29,113 nt of DNA from the IMG/VR virus record IMGVR_UViG_3300020220_000247, positions 1 through 29,113 of that record; one strand, 5' to 3'. The notes beneath the pieces are model-generated. The model saw nothing but the letters and a program-made list of their open reading frames with translations. It had not been told where the DNA came from and ran no database searches. Each line of letters begins with the position of its first letter. The first letter of the stretch is position 1. Positions 24,670 to 25,350 of the stretch are shown in pieces. Source of the stretch: a virus. The position numbers were made by a program, and so were the translations under genes.

Positions 24670-24694
24670 CATCATCTCCTCATAAAAAAGAAAG

Positions 24695-24756
24695 TGGGCG
24701 ATCTATCCTAGTGTGTGCTAGGAACGTACACCTTACGGTGACAATTCAATCGCCCA
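24695..24756 (-). ncRNA. Three-way-junction RNA after hsp20, possible branched terminator
   Basis: The minus-strand transcript can fold into a closed three-way junction. The outer stem of 8 perfect pairs is UGGGCGAU (24756-24749) with AUCGCCCA (24702-24695). One arm is CACC-GUAA-GGUG (24740-24729), closed by a GNRA tetraloop. The other arm is UCCUAG-CACACA-CUAGGA (24723-24706). It is followed at once by a U-rich tract (CUUUCUUUUUU) and then the MazG-like ribosome binding site. It lies in the 98-base gap after the hsp20 stop. Upstream, UUGAACG/CGUUCGA (24785-24760) may form another hairpin across that stop. Candidate roles are a branched terminator, a processing/stability element or a cis-regulator of the MazG-like gene. 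It fits no RNA family I know. Confidence 0.6.
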
Positions 24757-24773
24757 ACCTCGAACGTGTGAAG

Positions 24774-25229
24774 TTATTCGTTCAATAACTGCGATGAAGC
24801 AGTTGTGAGCGAAATTTTCCGCGCCTTACGAGATTCCGGCACGACATTTTCTAATTCAATTCTCAACATTCCATTAATCAGTGACGCATTGCGCACTTCC
24901 ACAGAATCTGCGAGTTGAAAAGTTTTCACAAAGGACCGATTCGCAATCCCACGATAAACATAATCAGTTTTATCGTCGTCTTTCGGCTCTTTTAATCCCT
25001 GAACAGTCAGAGTAGAATTTTTGAGTGTCAAATCAATCTCTTTGTATTCAAATCCTGCAACTGCCATTTCAATCACGAAATGATAATCATCTTTCCGCAC
25101 GATATTGTGTGGCGGAAATTTTGCAGGTTGAATGTCTGATTGAAGCAGACGCTCAAACGAGTCAAAAAACCGGTCAAAACCGACCGTGGTGGGAAGTAAC
25201 GGACTAAAAGATAAATGACCAACTGTCAT
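24774..25229 (-). CDS. hsp20: Small heat shock protein Hsp20 (alpha-crystallin)
   Basis: A 151-aa small heat shock chaperone, IbpA-like. The alpha-crystallin domain starts at about residue 45 (HFVIEMAVAGFEYKEIDLTL), with YRGIANRSFVKTFQLADSVE and NGMLRIELENVVPE as the hallmark strands. A short basic C-terminal extension follows, and KARKISL is similar to the PRxIxI tail. The start is the ATG at 25229 because the perfect ribosome binding site AAGGAGG lies about 5 bases before it; the frame stays open to 25283 but that portion is the structured leader. hsp20 is a common gene in T4-like marine phages and may assist virion assembly. Its leader looks like an RNA thermometer. Confidence 0.93.
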   Translation of the reverse strand: MTVGHLSFSPLLPTTVGFDRFFDSFERLLQSDIQPAKFPPHNIVRKDDYHFVIEMAVAGFEYKEIDLTLKNSTLTVQGLKEPKDDDKTDYVYRGIANRSFVKTFQLADSVEVRNASLINGMLRIELENVVPESRKARKISLTTASSQLLNE

Positions 25230-25293
25230 AACATCCTCCTTGGTTAAGCGAGAAATACATACTGCATGCTCACCATGAGCCATGCAGTGTATT
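25230..25293 (-). promoter_or_regulatory. ROSE-like RNA thermometer in hsp20 leader
   Basis: The untranslated leader folds into two hairpins. Hairpin I (25291-25256) is stable: ACUGCAUG/CAUGCAGU (25288-25281 with 25268-25261), an inner CUCA/UGAG stem with loop UGG and a single bulge, and extra outer pairs. Hairpin II sequesters the ribosome binding site: UUCUC-G-CUU (25254-25246) pairs with AAGGAGGA (25241-25234) across the loop AACC, with the G at 25249 bulged and one U-G pair. The bulged strand contains UCGCU, matching the U(U/C)GCU motif of ROSE-type thermometers that pair imperfectly with AGGA. The ATG follows 4 bases later. This is the architecture expected of a heat-opened switch before a small heat shock gene. 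Confidence 0.7.
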
Positions 25294-25304
25294 CATACTA
25301 CTCT

Positions 25305-25333
25305 AATATAATACTAAAAAGACAAAAAGTCAA
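25305..25333 (-). promoter_or_regulatory. Sigma70-like promoter for hsp20
   Basis: TTGACT (25333-25328), 17 bases of spacer and TATATT (25310-25305), read on the minus strand. Transcription would start near 25298 and give a leader of about 69 bases containing both hairpins of the thermometer. The -35 lies inside the end of regA and inside the descending arm of the terminator-like hairpin. Overlapping it, TATGAATA (25297-25290) is one base from the T4 late motif and could give a shorter, late transcript. Confidence 0.6.
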
Positions 25334-25350
25334 GTTTTAATTGACTTTTT
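25324..25350 (-). terminator. Terminator-like hairpin at the end of regA
   Basis: AAAAAGTCAA (25350-25341 on the minus strand) pairs with TTGACTTTTT (25333-25324) across a 7-base loop, a perfect 10-bp stem, followed by GTCTTTTTAG. The regA stop codon lies within the second arm. The stem is AT-rich and so only moderately stable; it could terminate or attenuate the clamp-loader/regA transcript. It is a near-symmetric structure, so it could act in either direction. Confidence 0.55.

Follow-up and report, generated by a model that had tools for sequence, protein, structure and literature searches.

A putative two-hairpin, ROSE-like RNA thermometer upstream of phage chaperone genes

The leader of the hsp20 gene in a 29,113-base virus fragment from IMG/VR (the whole stretch of DNA that was analysed, from now on referred to as the window) is probably a short two-hairpin RNA thermometer of the ROSE-like kind, of a type carried by phage chaperone genes. 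The element is not confined to hsp20 but is found in many phages and also upstream of dnaK, and is thereby wider than proposed in a first-pass annotation of the window. The two hairpins, the conservation of the anti-Shine-Dalgarno arm, the covariation of hairpin I and the link to chaperones are well supported by comparison of sequences, and we infer the melting range, and that the signal is temperature and the controlled step translation.

Results

The hsp20 gene and its surroundings

The gene downstream of the leader encodes, as had been proposed, an HSP20 protein (PF00011, E = 1.7e-15; PHROG 432 Hsp20, E = 7.4e-35) and has as neighbours regA (PF01818, E = 4e-47), located directly upstream, and a gene that encodes a PRA-PH (MazG-type) domain. 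The clamp loader, sliding clamp and polymerase encoded in the vicinity are of the T4-like kind, and a 66-kb record that is a near-copy of the window (L001) contains the T4 capsid protein Gp23 and a terminase. A search of bacterial genomes for a possible source, using the Hsp20 of the window, gave four distant matches.

When analysing the region upstream of hsp20 a putative σ70-like promoter was identified (Table 1), from which the transcript would begin about 70 nt 5' of the AUG; the promoter scan found one such site against 1.1 expected in shuffled sequences, which makes it weak when taken alone. Its -35 hexamer is situated inside the 3' arm of an inverted repeat that resembles a terminator, where regA ends, and to which the scan gave no terminator score. 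Directly 3' of hsp20, ahead of the PRA-PH (MazG-type) gene, lies an Rfam DUF3800-IX RNA (24689-24758, minus strand, 50.8 bits, cut-off 36.8). An in-frame upstream ATG at 25283 (minus strand), inside hairpin I, would if used extend Hsp20 by 18 residues, and an open frame from the upstream ATG was seen by eye in the leader L006 too.

Table 1. Position of the features in and around the hsp20 leader of the window
Feature	Position	Strand	Remarks
hsp20 coding sequence	24774..25229	minus	151 aa, ATG at 25229
Hairpin II	25234..25254	minus	from fold and sequence; motif common to 123/123 unique leaders
Match of model R1	25234..25285	minus	20.8 bits, E = 3e-4
UCGCU, the U(U/C)GCU motif of ROSE-like thermometers	25247..25251	minus	counted from sequence
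Hairpin I, stable	25261..25288	minus	single bulged G (25280/25281) on the 5' side
Putative σ70-like promoter, TTGACT-N17-TATATT	25305..25333	minus	10/12 match to consensus
Inverted repeat AAAAAGUCAA...UUGACUUUUU, terminator-like	25324..25350	minus	end of regA; read from sequence

Structure of the leader

The first-pass annotation described a very stable first hairpin followed by a second one over the ribosome binding site, and both form in the predicted fold of 25325-25222 (-27.8 kcal/mol, z = -1.87). This stability was matched by 7 of 200 shuffled sequences; for the single sequence of the window it is only mildly unusual, and it is the conservation that exceeds chance. Hairpin II consists of the anti-Shine-Dalgarno arm UUCUCGCUU (25254-25246), the loop AACC and the Shine-Dalgarno arm AAGGAGGA (25241-25234), with CUCGCUU paired with AAGGAG, G25249 bulged and one U-G pair, which is the ROSE layout and agrees with the bulged G, single U-G pair and 4-base loop described earlier. 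The UCGCU, located opposite AGGAG, corresponds as claimed to the motif U(U/C)GCU by which ROSE-like thermometers are defined (PMC11182007, PMC11342760; papers are cited here by PMC number). The other features of the ROSE-like class are likewise found in the window leader, i.e. imperfect pairing of the motif to the Shine-Dalgarno sequence, a bulged G in the motif (G25249), two to four hairpins (here two) with the Shine-Dalgarno sequence in the last, and a heat-shock gene downstream (HSP20, with dnaK in relatives). ABC transporter genes have also been reported behind ROSE-like elements (PMC11342760).

Conservation and covariation among phage leaders

Viral contigs were scanned by protein only, blind to the leaders, which gave 205 hsp20 loci (two hsp20 scans were represented by the best 80 of 245 and the best 80 of 122 relatives); three loci were left out (a missing start in one, short leaders in the other two) and identical leaders were merged, leaving 123. 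In all 123 unique leaders the 50 nt nearest the start contain U(U/C)GCU and, after it, (A/G)GGA, compared to 4.05 in a control where the sequence 5' of the Shine-Dalgarno was shuffled and the Shine-Dalgarno itself retained, start codons having been picked partly by the latter. The anti-Shine-Dalgarno arm is thus kept throughout although the leaders otherwise align poorly. Among 31 representatives with less than 66% leader identity 30 carry U(U/C)GCU, the exception being cyanophage S-TIM5, in which CCACGCUU opposite AAGGUGG constitutes a two-sided change in hairpin II (one isolate). Three loci (L001-L003) are identical to the window in both protein and leader and are not independent evidence, and in L004-L007, with 82-90% protein identity, hairpin II is unchanged letter for letter while hairpin I varies.

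Together with isolates the set comprised 133 unique leaders, and 11 of 508 matching phage records were examined individually. The best hairpin I contains a single 5' bulged G in 127 of the 133, and its GCC-N3-5-GG core was found in 110 (88 distinct). When the flanks of hairpin I in these 110 were picked regardless of pairing, 87.7% pair, compared to 59% (maximum 64.8%) when dealt randomly. Covariation was counted in pieces of equal length picked by a GCC-N4-GG core and not by pairing; in the 33 distinct pieces with equal loop length 97.7% of the cells pair, and the covariation is 0.836 against 0.225 in shuffled sequences (reached by 0 of 500) and at most 0.208 in slid ones. Below the bulge there is a C-G, U-G or U-A pair, which is the local pattern of hairpin II as well.

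Hairpin II showed no two-sided changes in 65 distinct rows, only one-sided exchange between C-G and U-G, in a whole-element alignment that was fitted to the covariance model R1 (see below) and leans towards structure. This invariance is expected since the helix is bound to the Shine-Dalgarno sequence. From 33 leaders in a plain MAFFT alignment RNAalifold recovered only four pairs, all in hairpin I and none in hairpin II, because the loop and linker lengths differ among the leaders. When hairpin II was extended outwards, the first pair exceeded all shuffles (0.44 versus a maximum of 0.38), and the second and third pairs fell inside the shuffle range. The idea that relatives would show conservation or covariation of the fold therefore held for the arm, conserved in 123/123, and for hairpin I, which covaries, but not for covariation of hairpin II, which is invariant apart from the exchange between C-G and U-G and the change in S-TIM5.

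The exact word TATAAATA, which we take to be the T4-type late promoter word, stands no more than 45 nt 5' of hairpin I in 57 of 125 leaders compared to 2.3 in shuffled sequences, and in 45 of these 57 it ends 5-7 nt before hairpin I. If it is a late promoter the message would start at hairpin I and the element would make up about the whole leader. The window has TTGACT-N17-TATATT in its place.

Covariance models and elements upstream of dnaK and other genes

Model R1 was built from 15 leaders without L001-L007, and its sole match at E ≤ 10 in the 29,113 bases of the window is the hsp20 leader (Table 1). Model R2, built from 70 leaders with L001-L007 again left out, was run on 23 whole records, of which 22 match at E ≤ 1. 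In nine out of ten named phages (one of them, AG-345-P14, an unannotated record) the best match is located directly 5' of hsp20, with S-TIM5 as the miss. Of these nine, Melnitz-3, S-PM2, P-TIM40 and AG-345-P14 are themselves training rows of R2 and Mosig has a near-copy among them (L153), leaving HTVC008M, C48C1, Atu_ph07 and HTVC115P outside the training set; among the 13 other records the sources of L012, L018, L037, L047 and L066 were also used in training. Weak matches were obtained for HTVC008M (E = 0.025), Atu_ph07 (E = 0.028) and the record of L006 (E = 0.012). Outside the leaders of chaperones and small proteins a single match below 0.01 was seen, in a regA-like gene (G003, E = 0.007; gene named by eye).

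A leader-blind scan with a phage DnaK provided the best 80 of at least 578 relatives, a sample that represents one related group and not all phage dnaK genes. After leaving out two short leaders and merging the rest, 52 of 53 unique dnaK leaders in this sample contain the motif, compared to 1.9 when shuffled, the miss being L547, and in 72 of the same 80 loci there is a second motif followed by hsp20. Model R2, trained on none of the 80 dnaK loci, gave 153 matches at E ≤ 1, before and after dnaK. Three whole records of 266, 356 and 383 kb have two R2 matches each (E < 1e-3), at dnaK and at hsp20, and in the record of L547 (G019) both matches are weak (0.21 and 0.52). Gp23 or terminase was found above cut-off in 6 of 14 records, including the three just mentioned, G019 and G009, while neither was above cut-off in the remaining 8, including the record of L366, so that these hallmark genes do not establish a viral origin for every contig. 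The 215-kb record G009, with a terminase, carries three elements, before hsp20, dnaK and a gene for 73 aa.

Searches with DNA words gave a similar picture; CTCGCTTAA..AGGAG occurs at no fewer than 80 loci, at least 52 of them before a recognisable hsp20 and others before an hsp20 cut by contig ends, and CTTGCTTAA..AGGAG at no fewer than 81 places, at least 53 of them before hsp20. The remaining word matches include chance matches, a peroxiredoxin (L023) and proteins of 70-90 aa without known family. The peroxiredoxin gene is AhpC-type (PF00578) and the element before it is situated at L023:2477-2523 (minus strand, 31.4 bits, E = 1e-5). Small proteins of 70-90 aa stand behind this same two-hairpin leader in L032, L034, L057, L059, L081, L086, L357 and L022, and some of them are phasin-like as judged by eye; the four that were scanned gave no Pfam match above cut-off and one weak PHROG match of unknown function.

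Predicted folding at different temperatures

Taken alone, hairpin II has a predicted energy of -6.1 kcal/mol at 25°C, -4.0 at 37°C and -3.1 at 42°C. When the window leader was folded at 25°C from 70 nt before the AUG, close to the predicted transcript start, to +0, +3, +9 or +20, the core pairs of hairpin II reached a probability of 0.89-0.93 and the GGAG was 2-5% unpaired, while an end at +12 gave 0.24 and 61% unpaired, and an end at +33 gave 3% unpaired with the GGAG paired with other partners. Starting at -75 and ending at +12 the GGAG was 78% unpaired, starting at -45 it was 49-81% unpaired except with the +33 end, and at -72/+12 the unpaired fraction was 0.59 at 25°C and 0.62 at 42°C. The ribosome binding site of the window is thus predicted to be open at low temperature for some transcript ends and closed for others, and energy models of this leader are ambiguous, the predicted fold depending on the ends chosen. 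With the ends -72/+12 at 25°C the GGAG was also predicted to be largely open in Melnitz (0.97), L018 (0.69) and the two genes of L366 (0.95 and 0.94).

Over all 133 leaders at 25°C the GGAG was unpaired to 0.18 compared to 0.37 when linker and anti-Shine-Dalgarno arm were shuffled (3' end +3) and to 0.29 compared to 0.42 (+12); another setting gave 0.27 for the leaders, 0.42 for shuffled ones and 0.44 for 302 other phage genes. According to these models the phage leaders conceal their Shine-Dalgarno sequence better than the controls do. From 25 to 42°C the change is shallow, 0.18 to 0.24 (+3) and 0.29 to 0.33 (+12), and the ROSE_3 control, Y7, also shifts little (0.05 to 0.17). In minimum-energy folds at 20°C no more than 81 of 123 leaders pair the motif with the Shine-Dalgarno, and 56 of these have the bulged G, in the pattern AG-GA. 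Nearest-neighbour models may handle the bulged-G motif poorly.

Discussion

Relation to known thermometers

The likeness to ROSE did not extend to an Rfam match, as no ROSE or thermometer family was found in the window at gathering cut-off or at E ≤ 10. Closest to the phage leaders is the family ROSE_3 (RF02523), an externally built model with matches in 9 of 24 phage records, at ten places (E from 3e-16 to 0.006), all at known leaders. Among the 24, the gathering cut-off of 43 bits is exceeded by Pseudomonas phage Y7 alone, whose record is unverified and may contain host DNA. In control genomes 6 of 14 match ROSE_3 at E ≤ 1, none above cut-off. A further scan, of 16 of the loci at E ≤ 5, gave three ROSE_3 matches. 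The window leader, giving no match at E ≤ 10 to a family whose members score at least 43 bits, is here filed as ROSE-like by its motif and layout and not as a member of RF02523.

The Pseudomonas ibpA thermometer, represented by ROSE_3, shares with the phage leaders the two hairpins, a hairpin I of the type AUGCC...GGGU with a bulged position, a hairpin II in which U(U/C)GCU with a bulged G pairs with the Shine-Dalgarno, and a small heat-shock gene 3' of it. The elements described here differ in that they are located in phage genomes, in many cases have a shorter inner helix of hairpin II, and also precede dnaK. Probing of the Pseudomonas RNA is reported to show that hairpin II melts between 25 and 42°C with hairpin I closed, and that hairpin II alone is sufficient (PMC3669281); in the ROSE-like element of oppF deletion of the bulged G lowered the heat induction (PMC11342760). 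In rhizobial ROSE1 and longer ROSE elements the last hairpin likewise hides the Shine-Dalgarno of heat-shock genes (PMC4166951, PMC3669281), but these have three or four hairpins instead of two. The cyanobacterial hsp17 thermometer, again of a small heat-shock gene, likewise encloses the ribosome binding site in a stem, although in one hairpin with a 1x3 internal bulge (PMC4477652).

Thermometers in phage genes have been described before, in λ cIII and SPβ blyA (PMC11182007, PMC4166951), and a σ70 gene has been added to these (PMC11182007). Neither of the two is a chaperone gene or of ROSE type; λ cIII has two alternative folds and closes with heat, and blyA is of the fourU type. The genes themselves are known, with hsp20 in the 25-gene core of marine cyanophages (PMC3037559), phage DnaK, DnaJ and Hsp20 described in 'moraphages' (PMC12619734) and small heat-shock proteins of cyanophages in PMC3827213, a text in whose excerpt the words 'thermometer', 'promoter', 'upstream', 'untranslated' and 'regulat' are absent. 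In the open-access literature searched, mostly titles and beginnings of abstracts, no thermometer before phage hsp20 or dnaK was recognised, in line with the first-pass annotation, which knew of none in a T4-like phage, and no account of the control of cyanophage hsp20 was found.

Alternative explanations

A structured leader could also lower translation in response to a signal other than heat, such as a metabolite, a protein, ribosome load or RNA decay late in infection, or set a fixed low level. The shallow thermal opening of the models is compatible with this, the temperature response of the leaders being something we infer, and so is TATAAATA, since its presence in 57/125 leaders means that timing may outweigh heat. 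However, the element is tied to genes for heat-shock chaperones and has the bulged-G motif of ROSE, and the alignments made contain no conserved core outside the two hairpins, so that we regard a non-heat leader as rather unlikely. That hairpin I, the stable and covarying part, only protects the 5' end of the message and the anti-Shine-Dalgarno arm is incidental appears very improbable, as U(U/C)GCU is not needed for protection of a message and is nevertheless kept in 123/123.

RegA, the translational repressor of the phage, acts on ribosome binding sites, and regA adjoins hsp20 in the window. No RegA was found, however, at E ≤ 0.001 in 8 of 18 records (several of which may be fragments), and in 7 of these 8 the element is matched by the model at E ≤ 1, in five at E ≤ 1.2e-4; an operator for RegA was rejected as a general explanation and is given still less weight than a mere 5' stabiliser. 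The conserved strand could finally be a site in DNA, a Pho box or a site for another transcription factor, since ATTCAAACTCGCTTAAATA upstream of the S-PM2 hsp20 is listed as a predicted Pho box (PMC10976474). According to the same paper this site was not bound by PhoB, and the gene showed no differential expression under low phosphate. The paired changes in hairpin I indicate a folded strand, and the conserved strand adjoins the ribosome binding site; the Pho box was rejected on the published binding data, and a DNA site of any kind is almost certainly not the explanation. The published prediction in S-PM2 (leader L145) includes the 5' arm of hairpin II (PMC10976474).

Proposed mechanism and significance

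A ROSE-like thermometer would act as follows. At low temperature hairpin II would pair the Shine-Dalgarno with U(U/C)GCU around the bulged G, leaving hsp20 poorly translated, and upon warming the imperfect helix would melt and expose the ribosome binding site; the fold and the 5' end would meanwhile be maintained by hairpin I, which is stable. The same element is placed ahead of hsp20 in many phages, and ahead of both dnaK and hsp20 in related phages from metagenomes. The first-pass annotation was right on the object and most likely also on its function. With somewhat less confidence than for the leader itself, we consider it fairly likely that tailed phages of several lineages have a heat-shock regulon of their own, with ROSE-type thermometers on hsp20, dnaK and small proteins of unknown function, which would make folding and virion assembly responsive to temperature or stress without the heat-shock sigma factor of the host.

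If such a regulon is real, no family of viral RNA thermometers would be larger, and to our knowledge this would be the first ROSE-type set on dnaK. In the one phage group whose dnaK also has the element, the supply of chaperones would be coordinated by RNA. A thermometer would also explain the predicted Pho box of S-PM2 that PhoB did not bind (PMC10976474), and S-PM2, pelagiphages and Melnitz-type phages are systems in which a temperature switch could be tested. The sequences compared here point to a widespread, putative temperature switch in viruses, on hsp20 and dnaK of many phages, and such a built-in switch would couple warming, and heat stress in the host, to the infection of abundant aquatic bacteria.
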